Shown here piece by piece: positions 22,494 to 49,375 of a stretch of 64,000 bases of DNA. This DNA comes from Xiphophorus maculatus. Lineage: Eukaryota; Chordata; Actinopteri; Cyprinodontiformes; Poeciliidae. The position numbers and the translations under genes were made by a program. Position 1 is the first letter of the stretch. Every line of letters begins with the position of its first letter. The notes under the pieces were generated by a model, which saw only the letters and a list, made by a program, of their open reading frames with translations, was not told the origin of the DNA and searched no databases. The stretch covers positions 1,148,272-1,212,271 of the forward strand of contig NC_036446.1 in assembly GCF_002775205.1 (NCBI RefSeq), written 5' to 3'.

Positions 22494-22985
22494 TTTTATT
22501 TGTATAGCACATTTCAGCAGCAAGACATTTCAAAGTGCTTGACATCATTACAAACACAGAAACACAAAGTAATATAGAATCAATCATTAAGTCAAGTTCC
22601 ATCAATAAATTTGTAATTGATTACATTTCAAATACAATTCTAAACAGGTGGGTTTTTAGTTGAGATTTAAAAGAAGTCAGTGTTTCAGCTGTTTTACAGT
22701 TTTCTGGAAGTTTGTTCCAAATTTGTGGTGCATAGATGCTGAAAGCTGCTTCTCCTCGTTTGGTTCTGGTTCTGGGGATGCAGAGCAGAACCAGAACCAG
22801 AACCTGAGAGGTCTGGAAGGTTGATACAACAGCAGCAGATCTTTAATGTATTGTGGTGCTGAGCTATTCAGTGATTTATAAACTAACAACAGGATTTTAA
22901 AGTCTATTCTTTGAGCTACAGGGAGCCAGTGGAGGGACTTTAAACTGATGTTATGGTCTCTATCTTCCTGGTTTTAGTCAGAACG
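22438..22985 (-). mobile_element. L2-like LINE, 3' end, copy 2, with (TCAA)n tail
   Basis: On the - strand a frame at 22,889-22,677 reads YKSLNSSAPQYIKDLLLLYQ, then SRPLR, then EKQLSASMHHKFGTNFQK, the end of an L2/CR1-type reverse-transcriptase ORF. A non-coding 3' end containing TACAAATAAAATTTGATTGA and a (TTGA)n run (22,439-22,492 on +) follows. The TCAA/TTGA microsatellite is the element's own 3' tail. The 5' part is missing, as is usual for LINE copies. Confidence 0.75.
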
Positions 22986-24024: not shown

Positions 24025-27000
24025 ATGATCAAGACCGAGAAGGTTCTGCACCTGAAGAGCAGCCGAGGCCGGAAGGTTCGGGTGGTTCGGGAGCACTACC
24101 TGCGGGAGCGGGTCCCCTGCTTCAGCGCGCTGTGCCAGGCGGGCTGCGAGAACGGTGAGGTCCGCGGGAGTACGGCGGCGGTTCGGGAGCTCGGTTCTGC
24201 TGAAGGCCCGGGTTCACTATGGCATGTAGGACATCTCTGGTCCGGTCCGGAGGATAAGACCCACAGTCCGGACCGGAACCAAAACTAGACGAACAAAAAT
24301 TTCAAGTTAAATTTCCTGTTTGAATGAAATCAATAAGTAAGTTGATCGATCAGTCAGAATGTTTTGCTGAGTTCTAGATCCACTTAGAGGCATCCATCCA
24401 TCATCCATCCATCATCCATCCATCCATCCATCCAACATCCATCCATCCAACATTCATCCATCCATCATCCATACATCCATCCATCATCCATCCATCATCC
24501 ATCCATCCATCCATCCAACATCCATCCATCCAACATTCATCCATCCATCCATCCAACATCCATCCATCCAACATCCATCCATCCAACATTCATCCATCCA
24601 TCATCCAACATTCATCCATCCAACATCCATCCGTCCAACATCCATCCATCCTACATCCATCATCCAACATTCATCCATCCAACATTCATCCATCCTACAT
24701 CCATCATCCAACATTCATCCATCCAACATCCATCCATCCAACATTCATCCATCCAACATTCATCCATCCAACATTCATCCATCCTACATCCATCATCCAA
24801 CATTCATCCATCCAACATTCATCCATCCAACATCCATCCATTCATCCATCCATCATCCAACATTCATCCATCCAACATCCATCCGTCCAACATCCATCCA
24901 TCCTACATCCATCATCCAACATTCATCCATCCAACATTCATCCATCCTACATCCATCATCCAACATTCATCCATCCAACATCCATCCATCCAACATTCAT
25001 CCATCCAACATTCATCCATCCAACATTCATCCATCCTACATCCATCATCCAACATTCATCCATCCAACATTCATCCATCCTACATCCATCATCCAACATT
25101 CATCCATCCAACATCCATCCATCCAACATTCATCCATCCAACATTCATCCAACATCCATCCATCCATCATCCAACATTCATCCATCCAACATCCATCCAT
25201 CCATCCAACATCCATCCATCCATCATCCAACATTCATCCATCCAACATCCATCCATCCATCATCCAACATTCATCCATCCAACATCCATCCATCATCCAA
25301 CATTCATCCATCCAACGTCCATCCATCCAACATTCATCCATCCAACATTCATCCATCCATCCAACATTCATCCATCCATCATCCAACATTCATCCATCCA
25401 ACATCCATCCATTCATCATCCAACATTCATCCATCCAACATCCATCCGTCCAACATCCATCCATCCAACATCCATCCATCCATCCGTCCAACATCCATCC
25501 ATCCAACATCCATCCATCCAACATCCATCCATCCAACATTTATCCATCCATCATCCAACATTCATCCATCCAACATCCAACATTCATCCATCCATCATCC
25601 AACATTCATCCATCCAACATCCATCCATCCATCATCCAACATTCATCCATCCAACATCCATCCATCCAACATCAATCCATCCAACATTCATCCATCCAAC
25701 ATTCATCCATCCAACATCCATCCATCCAACATCCATCCATCCATCCAACATCCATCCGTCCAACATGCATTTGTCCAACATCCACCCATCCATCCAACAT
25801 TCATTCATCCATCCATCCATCCATCCATCATCCATCCATCATCCATCCATCCATCCATCCAACATCCATCCATCCAACATTCATCCATCCATCCATCCAA
25901 CATCCATCCATCCAACATCCATCCATCCAACATTCATCCATCCATCATCCAACATTCATCCATCCAACATCCATCCGTCCAACATCCATCCATCCATCCA
26001 TCCAGCATTCATCCATCCAACATCCATCCGTCCAACATTCATCCATCCTACATCCATCATCCAACATTCATCCATCCAACATTCATCCATCCTACATCCA
26101 TCATCCAACATTCATCCATCCAACATCCATCCATCCAACATTCATCCATCCAACATTCATCCAACATCCATCCATCCATCATCCAACATTCATCCATCCA
26201 ACATCCATCCATCCATCATCCAACATTCATCCATCCAACATCCATCCATCCATCATCCAACATTCATCCATCCAACATCCATCCATCATCCAACATTCAT
26301 CCATCCAACGTCCATCCATCCAACATTCATCCATCCAACATTCATCCATCCATCCAACATTCATCCATCCATCATCCAACATTCATCCATCCAACATCCA
26401 TCCATTCATCATCCAACATTCATCCATCCAACATCCATCCGTCCAACATCCATCCATCCAACATCCATCCATCCATCCGTCCAACATCCATCCATCCAAC
26501 ATCCATCCATCCAACATCCATCCATCCAACATCCAACATTTATCCATCCATCATCCATCATCCAACATTCATCCATCCAACATCCAACATTCATCCATCC
26601 ATCATCCAACATTCATCCATCCAACATCCATCCATCCATCATCCAACATTCATCCATCCAACATCCATCCATCCAACATCAATCCATCCAACATTCATCC
26701 ATCCAACATTCATCCATCCAACATCCATCCATCCAACATCCATCCATCCATCCATCCAACATCCATCCGTCCAACATGCATTTGTCCAACATCCACCCAT
26801 CCATCCAACATTCATTCATCCATCCATCCAGCATTCATTCATCCATCCATCCATCCATCCAACATTCATCCGTCCATCCATCCATCCATCCATCCATCCA
26901 TCCATCCATCCATCCATCCATCCATCCATCCATCCATCCATCCGTTTTCAGGATCTGTCCAGAGGTTGTTGAATTTCTTCTCTTGGTTTTTTCCATCATA

Positions 27001-28540: not shown

Positions 28541-28586
<46 letters not shown>

Positions 28587-31500
28587 GTGTGTGTACGCCG
28601 CCGCTGTGTGGTACTACAACCACCTGGCTGGGATGATGAACCTGGTGATGATCACTGAGGACTCGGACGCCGTGTCCCGGTTCAGCAGCCTCAACTCCGG
28701 AGTCTACGTCATCAGCGTCCAGGTGGGGATGTTCGGTCGCCACAGCAACCACCCAGGTGCGACGCTCATCTTCACATTCTTAATTTTCAGGAGTACCTGC
28801 AGAGCTTCTGGCCGGCGCTGCAGGCCGCCCAGGATCTGTACGGATCCGTCCGCCAGGCGCTGCAGGAGAAGGAGGCCGACAGCTCGCAGAGGGAGTTTCC
28901 AGAACATTTACCTGCTCAGGTTCTGGAGGCCGGGATCAAGTCCGGACGCTTCGTCCAGGTCTGGACCTGCAGGTATTCTGGTACAGGATGTGCTGATGGA
29001 GCTCCTGATTGGACCGTTTCTCCTGCAGGGAACCCTGAACGTGAGCAAACACCGCGCTCAGAACGAAGCCTTCGTCACCAGCGACGGTTTGTCCTCTAAG
29101 AGCCCAGGTGAAGGTCGTTGCTGTCAGGTGAGATCCTCCAGGTGAAGCTCTGAGGTCACTCCTCCTCTCCTCCTGCCTCAGACCTGAGCGCCGGCGTGCT
29201 GGTGGCCGGTTCTAAGAGCCGGAACCGGGCCGTGCACGGCGACCTGGTGGCGGTGGAGCTGCTGCCCAGGGTCGAGTGGCGAGGGAAGGTCACGGCTCTG
29301 AGCGAAGGGCTGGCGGACGAGCGGAGCGGGGACGACGACGAGATCAAGCCCATGCCGACAGGTGGGGGGAGGGGTTCTGCCGGGCTGGGTGGGTCCATGC
29401 AGGTTCTGACCTCTGACCCCGGCAGGTCGCGTCGTGGGGATCCTGCAGAGGAACTGGAGGGACTACGTGGTGACCTTTCCCCCCCGGGACGCGGCGCAGA
29501 CCCAGAGCCGGGCCGCCCAGCGCGTCCTGGCCGTTCCCTGGGACCGCCGGATCCCCAAGGTCCGGATCAGCACCCAGCAGGCCGACGCGCTGCAGGTCCG
29601 GTCCGCTTACAGAAGCAGAAAATATCCGCTCGTTATGCCTGTTACCATGGCGACAAAACTTTTTATTCTGGTTTAATTTTGGTGTTAATACCAGATTTGA
29701 ACCTGGGATCAGTCCTGGATTTATTATTGTTTTTGTTACAATACAATAAAAAATAATAAAATCAGTTTAATCCTGATTTTATTCTGATATTATGAATTTA
29801 ATTATTGAGTTTAGTTCTGGTTTAGTCGTAGTTAATTTATGGTTTTATTGATGTTTTGTTCCTACATTTAAATCCAGTTTTAATCCTAGTTGTCTTGTTT
29901 TTATTTAGTATTTAATTATTTAATTCTGGTTTTATTCCAACTTTATTCTGATTTAGACCTGGTTTGAGAAGGTTTAGACGTAGCTAATTTATGGTTTTCT
30001 TTTTGTTTTATTTTTTGGTTTTAATCCTAGTTTTATTCTGGATTAAATTAAGATTTAATTCTGGTTTCACTCTTGATATTTAATCCTAATTTAAGCGGAG
30101 TGCTGCTGCTCTCCAGCAGGTTCAGCTACATGCCAGACTCTACACACTAAATTAAAGGTCAAAGGTCATGTCAGCCCAGTTAGGAAAAGGAACCGTTAGT
30201 GATTAAAGCTGGTGGTGTAACAGGAAAGAAGCTCTGGTGTAAATGTTGGGATTTGGGTTCTGAAATCAGCCGGTTCTGGTCGCTAAAGCCGTCTGGTTCG
30301 GTTCCCCCTGCAGGACCACAGGGTGGTGGTTCGGATCGACTCGTGGCCCAGCACATCGCTCTATCCCAACGGACACAGCGTGCGGGTTCTGGGCCGGGCC
30401 GGGGAGCTGGAGACGGAGATCCAGACGATCCTGGTGGAGAACTGCATCCACGTGCCGCCGTTCTCCGAAGCCCAGGTGGAGATCGGAACCGGTGGTCAGC
30501 TGGTGACCGGGTGCCATCGATCTGAGCGGGATGTTTCCCTGTGGTGTGGCAGCTCAGGGAGATGCCAGTGAATTCCCCGGAGAAACCGTGGGCGGCGGAT
30601 CCGGCCGAGGCGGCGGCGCGCCGGGACCTGAGGCGGACCCACCTGGTGTTCAGCATCGACCCGCGGGGCTGCGAGGACGTGGACGACACGCTGTCGGTGC
30701 GGCGCCTGGCCGGCGGGAAGCTCCTGGAGCTGGGAGTCCACATCGCCGACGTCACGCATTTCGTCAGGGAGGAATCGCTCACCGACCTGGAGGCCCGGTC
30801 CAGGTAGGACTCCAGAACCGGCGGGCAGCAGCTAATCTAACAGCGATCATTCGTTCACCAGACAAACTCCTGAAGTTTCTGTTAAAGGTTCAGAAGTTTT
30901 TTATTTAAAGAAATTGATTTGAAAAATATTTCTCTTATTTTTTTAACTTATATAAATTATTATCATTTTGATCCTTAAAACATTAAAATTTCCATGTAAT
31001 TTTATTTATAATCTGTCTAATGATATTATTACTAAATATTAAATGATTGATAAATTGATCAGTCACTTTTTAACAGATATGTTTTTACTCAGTTAATTTC
31101 TTGGTCGGCTACTTTTTAAAATATGTTTAAGTATTGCTGCTCTTACTTTAGTACAGTTTTTGGTTTCTCCTCTGGTTACCGTTTACATCCTTATTGATTA
31201 TCTTGTATGAATAAATATGGTTAAAACATTCTGTTTTCTGGATGAGTTGTGTTCATGTTTCCCTCTTAGAGCCACCACCTACTACCTGGCGGACCGCCGC
31301 TACGACATGCTGCCTGCTGTCCTCAGCGCTGACCTTTGCTCCCTGCTGGGCGGGGTCGACAGGTCGGTTCTCTCTGCTCCTCTGCTCACCGCCGTCTCCA
31401 TCGGTCCCAACGCCGTCCTCTGGTTTCCAGGTACGCCATGAGCGTCGTGTGGGAGCTGGACGCTCAGAGCCTGGCCGTCACCAAGGTGTGGTTCGGCCGG

Positions 31501-34500
31501 ACCCTGATCCGCTCCTCCTACCAGCTGCACTACGAGCTGGCCCAGGCACTGCTGAACGGGGAGGAGGTCCAGGTTCCTGAGCTGGCCCGGCTCGACCCAG
31601 AGGAGCGGGACGCCAAGCTGAGCGAGCTCATCCAGGCGCTGGAGACGCTGACGCACATCGCCAGACACCTGCGGGCTCAGAGGGACCGAGGAGGAGCGCT
31701 GGAGCTGGAGGGAGTGGAGGTACAGACGGACATTTCTGCTGGGTTTATCTCCTGAGATTTCTGATTAATTACATTTCTTATGTATATATATATTTTTGAA
31801 AAACTCAAAATACACATCTACATGAATCCAACTTGCAACAAACTGATAAAATTATTTGTGATCGCATTATTTTGTTTATTTACTATTGATAGTTCAAGAG
31901 ATTCAATAATTGTAATACCGAGTGACACCACCGGGTGGCGGTGCATCTGTTGCCCTGTTTTTCCAGTTACAAGCAGTAAAGTCTTAACTTTGTCTAATTA
32001 CAGGGTGGTAATGTATGAAGTTATTATTAAATAAAAATGTTTACGTATTAATTCGTCCTATGTAAACTACGTTTTGAGAGTAAACTGTTCTGGCTTTGTT
32101 TGCTGCTAAGCTAACGCCGAAATGCTAACTGCTACCAGCGAATGAGACCCGATACCTGCTACAGAGGCGTAATGCAAAAAATCCCGACATATTTATAAGT
32201 AAAATATCGTATTACAGTTCACTCAATACAAGTAATAGACTTTTTTATTTCACGGTTTAAATAAGTGAATACAAATTTAATGGCCCAGAAATGTTGGATT
32301 CATGTAATGGATATTTAAAGACATAACAGAAACAAAAACAATAAACAGAAAAATATATAAATCAGAAACTGACCTCCATGTTGAAGACCTCTGGTGGAGC
32401 ATCAATCTCAAATGATTCTGGTTTAAACCCAGTAGAAGGTCAAACGTCACTGAGATCATTTTGAACGTTAATCAGTTTTTTTCTGTAGCAGAAGAAGAAG
32501 AATCCGTTTCTGTGGTGGATCACAAGTTGCTCGCTCCTCCTCCACAGGTCCGAGCCCAGCTGGACCAGGACAAGAACATCATGGCGCTGGTTCCTCGCCA
32601 GCCCCTGGAGGTCCACGAGACCGTGGCAGAGTGCATGATCTACGCCAACCACTGGGTGGCGCGCAAGATCCAGGAGGCCTTCCCCTACCAGGCCCTGCTG
32701 AGGCGTCACCCGCAGCCACGCCAGGAGCTGTTCAGCCAGCTGGTGGACACGGCCCGGGCCAGGGGGTTCTCCATCGACACCAGGTGGGTTCTGGTCCGCT
32801 CCCCACCCGTCTGCCGGCTCACCACCTGGCCAGAGGTGGAGACCAGCAGCAAGGGAGGAGTTTGATGGAAAAGAACTAATTTTTACAGGATGTCCATAAA
32901 ACCTGAATTCTGACTCTCCTGCAGGACCAACAAGGCCTTGGCGGACTCTCTGGACCGAGCCGTGGACCCCGAGGACCCGCTGGTGAACAGGCTCTTCAGA
33001 ATGATGGCCACCCAGGCCATGTCTCAGGCCGTGTACTTCTCCACTGGTGCTCAGCCTGAGGACCAGTTCTACCACTACGGTAAACCAGTTTTACCGCTAT
33101 GGTAAACCAGTTTTACCGCTATGGTAAACCAGTTTTACCGCTATGGTAAACCAGTTTTACCGCTATGGTAAACCAGCTCGGCTCTTCCTGATTGCCTCAT
33201 TTCTGCTCGTCAGGTCTGGCTCTGGACCGCTACACTCACTTCACCTCCCCGATCCGCCGCTACGCCGACATGGTGGTGCACCGCCTGCTGACCGCCGCGC
33301 TGCAACTGGAGCGCGGTGGTCAGCAGGGGGCTGAGCCTGGCAAACCGCCGGCCGGCAACAAAGACATGGAGGAGCTGGCAGAGCACATCAACAGCAGGAA
33401 CCGGGTGAGCGGCTTGTTGGGTCTGGGCGGTTCTGTGCTTCCTGAACGTTGTCTGAGTTGTTGTGACGTCGGCAGGCGGCCCAGCGAGCCCAGAACCTTT
33501 CCACCGGACTCTTCCAGTGCCTCTTCTTCAAGGAGCGCGACCCGGAGACGGACCCGCGCTGCGTGGCCGACGCCATCATCTACTCCATCAGGGACAACGG
33601 CGTGCTGGTCTTCATTCCAGAGTAAGGAACTCTTCCTCTATTGGTCTGCTGTTCCAGTGACAGAAGAACATTTCCTCAGCATGATTCTGCCACCGCCATG
33701 CTGGACACTTAGTTCAATGTTCTTAGGTTTTAAGCCTCAGGACCTTTTTTTTCCTGGTAGCATCACTTCTGTCAAGTTGGGTCCCACCAAATGAAATGGA
33801 CTAAATTTTACAGATTTCACTACATTATTCATTCATTTTTGTCAGTTCCAAACTAAATATTTAACTTACTAGCTAAATATGTAGTAAGCAAGTTAAATAT
33901 ATAGTTTGAAGCTAATTATATAGATTGCTAGCTAAAAATGTACTTTCAAGCTAACTATTTAGCTAGCAACCTAATTATTCATTTGGCCAGCTACATTTAG
34001 TGTTAAGCTGAACATTTAGTTTAAGCTCAATGTATAGCTTGCAAGTTAAATATTTGGTGTTTAGCTTAAAAGCTAAACAGCTTGAAACTAAATTTAGCTG
34101 CCTTACAAGATATTTATTTTGGAGATAAATATTTAATTTGAGCCAAAATATTAAACTTGGTAGCTAAAAAATTTGTTTCAAGCTAGCTAAATATTTAGTA
34201 TCAAACTAAATGCTTAACTTGCTAACTTTGTATGCAGTTAGCAATCTAAATAAACATTTTACTAAATAAATATTTACCTTGCTAAATAAAAATATTTAGT
34301 TGCAAGCCAAACATTTAGTTTGAAACTAAATATGTAACTTGCTTTCAAAATATTTATTCAATTATTTTGCTTCAAGCTAACTAGTTAGCATACCAAGTAT
34401 TTAGCTTGCTAACTAAACACTTACTTTGAAACTGTGATATTTATGAATGAGTAATACGGTGAAAACTTGACTTTAATAAAACTTGTTTTACTTACACCAG

Positions 34501-36489: not shown

Positions 36490-39069
36490 TCAGGGTTGGG
36501 AGCTTGGACTTTTTTCTTTCTCATCCTCAGCAGGAAGTTCTGCTGAAGGGTCGGGTTCAGAAACCTCAGGTGGAGGAGTCTTTGTGCTGCCGGACGGATC
36601 CGGGTCCAGATGTTCTCCTGGCTTCTGGTTCTGCTCAGTAGACCCGTTGAGATCTGCTCTGAGGTCACTTCCTGTGTCAGCCTGGGGCTCTGAAGGATTT
36701 GAGGAAACAGAAAAACTTCCTAAGTATTTTTCGGTGGATGGTTCTGAGCGCCCTCTAGTGGTTCTGGGTGGAACCGTCTCACCTGTCTGCTGCTGCCGGG
36801 CCAGTCGCCTCTCCAGCGCTCGCTGCCGGTTCTGCTCCATCCGCCGGCGCTGCTCCTCGGTCAGGGAGGGAGGAGCCGGGACCGGGGTGGAGTGGACCGG
36901 ACCTGGAGGATCGGTAAAGGAGGCCTGGCTGATGACCGGATCGGGATCCTGGAATCCAGCCGGCGGCTCCTCCGCGCCTGGAAACGAGAGAAATCACCTC
37001 AGATCCAGAGTGATGCTAATTAGCTTTGATGCTAATTAGCATCATTAGACATGTGAGGGATGAAACAGAGTTCAGTCTTACAACGTTATTTTACTGATGC
37101 AAACAAAACTTTAAAATACAGTTAAAAATGTTTGAACAAACCATTGCTTCATCATGTTACAGATTAACAGATGAACTTATTGGCTGCAAAGTATCATGAG
37201 CTCCTGGAATGTTTTTGCAAAATGAAATCAGTTTCTGAATTTAAACATATTTTTGAGCAGCCATTGGTGTTTCCAACAATAAAATTTGGAATAACTTAGA
37301 ATTATGGTCACATGTTATGTGTTTTAATGTATCATACATAGATGACATTATTTTGCCTGGATATATTTTATTGCACACTCTCTCTCATAATTAAGATTAT
37401 TTACTGAGTTTATCAGCAAAGTTTCGGCCCATGAACTACATGTAGTTAAAACTCCAACCACTAGAGGGCATCAGAGGACTTCAAATAGCAACCTTATCAT
37501 GAGGCAGATGCATCAACCAACATTTGTAATATTTATACATCTCCAGTGAAGGAGGTAGAAGCTAATTAGCTTCACTAGCCCATCAGGGGTTAAAGGTCAA
37601 AATTATTTAAAATTGACTGATTTTCATATATAAAACCAGCATTATAAGAAAAGTTTGGACACTTTTTAAATCACATTAGTTACTGAAGGTCCAGTCCGAC
37701 TCATTCAGCCTCTGCAGCAGCAAGAATCAGACTCAGGTCCAGTCCGTCTCACCTGGTTTGTCCATGAAGTCTTCGTCCGTGAGGGGCATGTCCAGTCGGA
37801 TCCGTTTGAGGCAGGTCTGCGGCAGAGAGGAGGAACCCGTTAGAACCCGTCCTGCCCAGAGGAACTCTCCCTTCCTGCTTCAGCCCACCTGAACCTCCTT
37901 CTTGCTGCCGAGCTTCTCCACCCTGTCGATGAAATCTTCAAACTGCAGTTTGGGGAAGAGCCGGTGGGCCCAGTTCTCCATCTTCTGCATGAGCAGCCGC
38001 AGGTCCTCCGCCTGGCCAAAGAGCCGGCCGGGTCCAGACGTCCAGCAGGAGCAAACAGGATTCAATTAAACGCGATCAGAAGAAGAACAAAGACTTTTAT
38101 AGATGAGACATTTTAGATCCAACAAAAACAGCTGGATATGGAATATTTTAAAGGGGTACTGTTATGTATTTTACAATGATTACATTTTATAGCATAATGA
38201 CTTTGTTATTTAGTGCCTTGAAATCGGGTCTGTCTCTTTAAAAGTTCCTGCTCTTCCTGAAGCTCCGCCTCCAGGAAGTCGTCCCATCATGGCTCCTCTA
38301 TTAACCCTTTAACATTTCACCAGCGCTGCTCTGAGCAGCAGCTGCTGTAACGAGCGCAGCAGTTCCACCAGCTGTTTGCTAATTGCTGCTGGCTAGTCTG
38401 AAGGAGCTAGGCCTCAAAGGCGGGGCTAAGTCCACCCAGGCGTTTTGCAACTGAATGGTTGCCTTGGAGATTAAAGGATTTCTCAAACATAAAAGAATCA
38501 AAGCAACATGATGAAGGAAAAACTTTACAACATGATAAACAGATCAAAAAAGTCTGTTTTCCATGATACTGGCCCTTAAAAATGTTTATTTTTTAGCTAA
38601 ATGGTGACTAATCAATCCTTGTTTCTCACCTCGTGACCTTTGCCCTTAAAGAGAGCGTTGGCGAACAAGGTCCGCAGAGCCGGCAATCCTCTGTCTGAAG
38701 TGAGCCTGAGAGGAAACGACATCAGTCATGAGCGTCCGGATTAACCACCAGAGCAAAGCGACCTGTTATGATGGGAAACCTGTGGGAGTCCAGCTTTGGC
38801 TGCGGCCTCTTCACTCCTTTCCTCTTGGCAGCCGGAACGTCGGCCAGCTTGGACACCTCGCCCTCCTCAGCTGCAGCACAACCACAGGTGGCCGTCACCA
38901 GATCGTCACGTTTATCTCCGCTGACATTTAAAAACGAACTCTCACCTTCTCCAAACGGGTCGCCCTGCGACTGAGCTGCTCCAGGGGACAGAGGGGGAGG
39001 AAGAGGAGGGAAAGCTTCATCCTCCAAGTTGGAGAAGTCGCTCATCCCGTCGTCCTGTTGGTCATTCAT
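36490..39069 (-). CDS. tipin: TIMELESS-interacting protein (replication fork protection)
   Basis: Partner of TIMELESS in the fork protection complex; it binds RPA and helps CHK1 signalling and fork stability in the nucleus. Coding exons on -: 39069-38946, 38870-38780, 38705-38630, 38011-37889, 37816-37753, 36977-36783, 36719-36490. Total 903 nt, 300 residues (human 301). The N-terminus is acidic and proline-rich ([14 protein letters not shown]). The Swi3 domain spans about residues 72-155, with [21 protein letters not shown] and [20 protein letters not shown] clearly conserved. Residues 198-217 ([20 protein letters not shown]) correspond to the RPA-binding helix. The C-terminal tail is rich in Pro, Glu and Ser and is variable in the family. 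The start codon follows a good Kozak context (GCCGCCATGA) just inside the second exon, so exon 1 is non-coding. It lies tail to tail with dis3l, 424 bp between stop codons. Intron 4 contains a MITE (38,148-38,580). Confidence 0.94.
36748..36761 (-). promoter_or_regulatory. CTCF-like motif in a tipin intron
   Basis: On the - strand CCACTAGAGGGCGC, an exact fit to CCASYAGRKGGCR. It lies in the short intron between the last two tipin exons. Binding is inferred. Confidence 0.5.
37458..37470 (+). promoter_or_regulatory. CTCF-like motif in a tipin intron
   Basis: On + CCACTAGAGGGCA, an exact fit to the CTCF core. It lies 0.7 kb from the opposed motif at 36,748, pointing away from it. Confidence 0.5.
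37600..37745. repeat. Dispersed repeat shared with lctl intron
   Basis: CTGAAGGTCCAGTCCGACTC, then ATTCAGCCTCTGCAGCAG, is a diverged reverse complement of 43,955-44,040 in the intron between lctl exons 8 and 9. It has no coding content. Confidence 0.5.
38148..38580. repeat. MITE-like element, GGGGCAGTAT family, copy 3 (both ends)
   Basis: The most complete copy of the family: left end TAAAGGGGTACTGTTATG and right end CCATGATACTGGCCCTTAA form imperfect terminal inverted repeats about 18 bp long. It shares the central GC-rich block with the copy at 548-917. It sits inside tipin intron 4 (38,629-38,012). Confidence 0.75.

Positions 39070-41148: not shown

Positions 41149-49375
<8,227 letters not shown>

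Follow-up and report, generated by a model that had tools for sequence, protein, structure and literature searches.

Which 5' splice site does the spliceosome use when the edge of an exon has been copied several times over into the intron that follows it, and what would become of a transcript spliced from one of the copies? This question is raised by a locus of Xiphophorus maculatus, in a window of 64,000 nucleotides (contig NC_036446.1, positions 1,148,272 to 1,212,271 of assembly GCF_002775205.1) whose own numbering is used throughout. A first-pass annotation of these letters had proposed that five consecutive donors stand at one exon border of dis3l, and we followed it up by computational analysis.

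Identity and exon structure of the gene

The protein sequence encoded by the exons around the array is nearer to DIS3-like exonuclease 1 (345.9 bits) than to RRP44/DIS3 (150.4) or DIS3L2 (122.7). It includes an RNB domain (PF00773, E 1.5e-38) and belongs to an intact, full-length frame, and judged on these comparisons the gene holding the array looks like a fish dis3l, an RNA-decay gene. Exons were placed with a human DIS3L sequence that was checked against 9g8n (match 1-1054). The resulting model has 18 coding exons between 24025 and 36074 and, when spliced from the first donor, reads through 1,049 codons without a stop; the label "exon 14" given earlier to the repeated exon is right when coding exons are counted. 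The other 16 introns measure 64, 68, 68, 70, 71, 74, 77 and 141 nt and longer, up to 3102 nt. The features around the array are as follows.

32925..33079, + strand: dis3l coding exon 14, RNB domain
33080..33213, + strand: intron 14 of dis3l as spliced from donor 1, 134 nt
33062..33083, + strand: exonic copy of the 22-bp unit, made up of the final 18 nt of coding exon 14 and GTAA; donor 1 at 33080
33084..33105, + strand: intronic copy 1; donor 2 at 33102
33106..33127, + strand: intronic copy 2; donor 3 at 33124
33128..33149, + strand: intronic copy 3; donor 4 at 33146
33150..33171, + strand: intronic copy 4; donor 5 at 33168
33172..33176, + strand: partial sixth copy, ACCAG
33188..33192, + strand: branch-point candidate CTGAT (yUnAy), whose A, at 33191, lies 23 nt from the start of exon 15
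33214..33404, + strand: dis3l coding exon 15

Elsewhere in the window, a Swi3 domain (PF07962) at 37880-38065 on the minus strand lies downstream of dis3l in the opposite orientation and probably belongs to tipin; in human, dis3l and tipin are neighbours. An exon of glycosyl hydrolase family 1 (PF00232) at 42859-43314, also on the minus strand, is perhaps part of an lctl-like gene. The overlapping minus-strand open reading frames at 22621-22973 look like the terminal part of a reverse transcriptase from a fish LINE, and the one at 22677-22973 gave no Pfam match at 0.001.

A minisatellite across the exon/intron border

Tandem Repeats Finder places a repeat of period 22 at 33062-33176, with 5.2 copies, 96% matches and a score of 209. 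The unit joins 18 exonic bases to the intronic GTAA, and its exonic copy reads ACCAGTTCTACCACTACGGTAA. The four intronic copies, which together span 33084-33171, are identical to one another and read ACCAGTTTTACCGCTATGGTAA; three transitions in 22 positions set them apart from the exonic copy (C>T at position 8, A>G at position 13, and C>T at position 17, which lies inside a CpG). When both strands of the whole window were scanned with up to three mismatches allowed, the unit was found five times, always inside the array, whereas 100 dinucleotide shuffles gave a mean of 0.00. Its tandem, near-identical copies, of a unit length within 10-60 bp, make the array a minisatellite. The earlier description of a 22-bp unit with four further copies, each holding a GGTAAAC donor, was thus borne out by the repeat finder and by the unit scan, as were the five GT positions, the division of each unit into 18 exonic and four intronic bases, and the reading of QFYHYG in the exonic copy and QFYRYG in the intronic ones. 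The span proposed for the repeat, 33062..33181, starts correctly and ends too late, since 33177-33181 lie outside it. An exact 24-base pattern had no occurrence in viral_contigs or genome_contigs, collections of non-animal sequence in which a miss is little informative, and a protein search of viral_contigs, likewise without animals, returned 21 pattern stretches and no relative.

It is very improbable that the copy number is an artefact of assembly or sequencing. The difference between exonic and intronic copies is consistent, the gene is otherwise intact, and the 115 bp of the array fit inside single reads of common platforms.

Tandem arrays cover 2 of the 34 splice junctions of dis3l, namely the exon-14 donor and the exon-4 acceptor, the latter within a TG repeat. 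By a rough estimate from the repeat coverage outside the 2.5-kb array of intron 1, about two such overlaps would be expected by chance, and the figure would rise if that array were counted. On this count a junction inside a repeat is nothing out of the ordinary for the repeat-rich dis3l; what is unusual is a row of five intact, equal donors. The intron-1 array (24391-26943, 2.55 kb, of CATC/CATCCAA type) stays open in three frames for 864-885 codons and is a simple repeat, not a gene. The TG microsatellite at 28544-28594 forms the 3' end of intron 3 (TGTGTGTGTAG) and reaches into exon 4, which starts at 28587; because the repeat builds this acceptor, the quality of the acceptor may vary with TG length.

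Origin of the array

The repeated exon edge reads YHYG, and human DIS3-like exonuclease 1 (9g8n) and RRP44/DIS3 (6h25) both read HHYG. Since the exonic histidine (CAC) is present in both human proteins, this residue is old and the arginine codon (CGC) of the intronic copies is derived, and the opposite polarity, with the exonic copy as the derived one, is ruled out by the same shared residue. A 22-bp stretch lying between two ACCAG pentamers, themselves 22 bp apart, would first have been tandemly duplicated by slippage or unequal exchange, with ACCAG as the probable seeding microhomology. The duplicated intronic copy would then have acquired its three transitions and, thus changed, would recently have multiplied to four. 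We take the expansion to be recent because 88 of 88 bases are identical among the intronic copies, and on the sequence evidence the order duplication, substitution, expansion is the likeliest.

Without its four extra copies intron 14 would measure 46 nt (134 minus 88). Because this remainder is oddly short for an ancestral intron, mere addition of copies to a normal mini-intron would be an incomplete history; the intron was either ultra-short earlier or later lost unique sequence. One way to read the arithmetic is that copying of the exon edge rescued an ultra-short intron of 46 nt by restoring a spliceable length. A single intronic copy would bring it to 68 nt, the length of two other dis3l introns, and human introns have a length threshold near 65 nt according to the consulted portion of PMC4463651. 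Unique sequence may instead have been lost after the duplication, and splicing of human introns as short as 43, 49 and 56 nt is described there; we regard a rescue as quite unlikely. The intron of dis3l resembles these ultra-short vertebrate introns, as presented in that portion of the source, when its extra copies are removed or when donor 5 is used (46 nt), and departs from them when donor 1 is used (134 nt).

The array as a newly gained intron was considered and is ruled out, as the 3' end of the intron lacks the unit. Intron gain of the Rogers type, through AGGT duplication, takes both ends of the intron from a duplicated exonic segment; here the unit occupies only 33062-33171, with the partial copy to 33176. 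For repeats that carry splice sites, the closest cases that we met in the literature are the fission yeast genes SPOG_01682 and SOCG_00815, in which multi-copy 24-bp AGGT exonic tandem duplications form introns (Zhu & Niu 2013, as described in the sections seen of PMC4974935). Like dis3l, they combine a short coding minisatellite, present in several copies, with splice-site sequence that is removed by the spliceosome; unlike dis3l, where only the 5' edge is repeated and the 3' half is unique, their duplicates create the intron. The same sections give ATP2A1 (Hellsten 2011) and the potato RdRp gene as introns gained by segmental duplication. In these, too, a tandem genomic duplication redistributes splice sites and leaves the protein unchanged, whereas the dis3l copies are confined to the 5' side of an intron whose newness is unsupported. 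No five-donor minisatellite was recognised in our literature search, which covered mostly titles and the beginnings of abstracts, with subscription journals largely outside its scope.

Coding outcome of each donor

Among the five donors only the first gives the full-length frame of 1,049 codons. The first-pass annotation had stated that the second donor adds 22 nt and shifts the frame and that every later donor includes an in-frame TAA, and both statements held on the full gene model. Donor 2 leads to a stop at codon 824, with 388 nt still to go to the last junction. Donors 3, 4 and 5 add 44, 66 and 88 nt and all run into a TAA at codon 785, which lies 527, 549 and 571 nt upstream of the last junction, respectively; retention of intron 14 ends at the same codon, 617 nt upstream. 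A premature stop beyond the usual 50-nt rule makes a transcript a target of nonsense-mediated decay (NMD). Because all of these stops stand at least 388 nt before the last junction, the products of donors 2-5 and of intron retention are of the NMD type as predicted by this rule.

Choice among the donors

The five GGTAAAC sites are tandem alternative 5' splice sites, being GT donors of similar strength that share one acceptor. The predicted energy of the U1 duplex is -5.5 kcal/mol for donor 1 and -5.3 kcal/mol for donors 2-5, and a weight matrix of donor base frequencies gives 1.18 and 1.28 bits, respectively. As these values are nearly equal, donor strength cannot decide the choice. All five are weak, without G at +5. 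Donor 1 is outscored by most of the 15 other correctly placed dis3l donors (four score below it), the consensus-like ones reaching 5-8.5, and its weakness makes leakage to donors 2-4 plausible.

Order and distance separate the donors. Use of donors 1 to 5 would give introns of 134, 112, 90, 68 and 46 nt, and their distances to the best branch-point candidate (A at 33191) are 111, 89, 67, 45 and 23 nt; in another candidate, CTCAT, the A is at 33199. Donors 2-4, with predicted introns of 112, 90 and 68 nt, would thus be possible on geometrical grounds. The 46 nt of donor 5 compare with at least 64 nt in the other introns of the gene, which makes its use improbable though still conceivable, since human cells do splice introns of 43, 49 and 56 nt (PMC4463651, in the portion consulted). 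In a library of designed tandem donors in human cells, equal-strength sites behaved as "first come-first served": where both sites had the consensus sequence, splicing went predominantly to the first (p = 3.3e-5), and the preference also appeared at equal strength across the whole library (PMC6783452, from the text available of that paper). The native contexts of that library had donors 2-77 nt apart and introns of 70-118 nt, according to the same text. Its designs are, with the fission yeast genes, the nearest parallels that we know to be described; they resemble dis3l in having close, near-identical donors, one acceptor and a changed frame, and differ from it in having two donors by design against five natural ones in a minisatellite. 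Since equal tandem donors favoured the first in the library as there described, and since donor 5 would leave so short an intron, donor 1 is expected to be in use; by analogy we expect it to be the main site, with some leakage that would be cleared by NMD. The earlier picture of five equivalent competitors therefore stands for U1 pairing, which is equal, and falls for geometry, which is not, and for the preference by order seen in the library as far as the available text of PMC6783452 reports it. Its alternative, an array that yields NMD-targeted transcripts, may still apply.

A possible function of the array could be poison splicing, regulated or constitutive, in which decoy donors send a set share of dis3l transcripts to NMD and copy number tunes the output. 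Splicing from any of the four extra donors leads to an early stop, 388-571 nt ahead of the last junction, U1 pairing is equal and donor 1 is weak, as such a device would have it. The full identity of the copies suits a recent expansion rather than an old function, the geometry of donor 5 is poor, and the library rule, in the available text of PMC6783452, favours donor 1; we consider this function unlikely. Still less credence, indeed very little, goes to the putative version in which the array varies in copy number and thereby sets dis3l output. The cytoplasmic exosome, whose nuclease is DIS3L, has a part in the clearance of faulty mRNA. If an array of poison donors did act in this way, a feedback loop could exist in which the dis3l product helps to remove its own mis-spliced transcripts.

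RNA folding of the array

Each intronic unit can be written TTTACC GCTAT GGTAAA CCAGT, and because its two 6-base arms are complementary the array is able to fold on itself. It is conceivable that such hairpins hide the decoy donors and leave donor 1 open. The predicted stem is 6 bp long in the intronic units and 4 bp in the exonic one, and of the three changes in the intronic copies two agree with a templated palindrome correction. A fold of the intron alone leaves donor 1 open (0.1 kcal/mol) and closes donors 2-5 (4.8 to 6.3 kcal/mol). Adding exon sequence, however, buries donor 1 just as deeply: the cost of opening donors 1 to 5 is 8.1, 8.1, 7.9, 8.0 and 5.8 kcal/mol in a fold of 33040-33230, and 6.9, 6.8, 6.6, 6.5 and 5.0 kcal/mol in a fold of 32926-33404. 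Equally foldable units are also common, making up 22.9% of 1000 shuffles of the intronic unit, 9.7% of 1000 shuffles of the exonic one and 32% of the full set of 1540 transition triples, and a 6-bp stem is reached by 140 of the 1540 triples and 162 of 5000 shuffles. Selective exposure of donor 1 by hairpins is unsupported, and we hold it to be very unlikely; if anything, the predicted structure favours donor 5.

Overall interpretation and significance

The explanation that we favour, and think rather likely, is that a small minisatellite arose across a pre-existing exon/intron border, that donor 1 is mainly used and that splicing tolerates the array. Donor 1 would be chosen since it is made first, its U1 strength equals that of the rest and an upstream site is favoured at equal strength. 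Donor 5 would be too near the branch point, and donors 2-4 are probably minor decoys whose premature-stop products would be removed by NMD. Most likely the array is a neutral repeat accident without selected function.

The array amounts to a classical test set up by nature, with five near-identical donors in cis that differ almost only in order and distance, and dis3l suits such a test in that its protein comes from the first donor only. Junction counts would reveal how strictly, in a living animal, the first of several weak donors wins, what amount of NMD waste can be borne, and how repeats can lengthen an intron from the exon edge. If neutral, the array would illustrate well how a repeat can grow at a splice site without harm.
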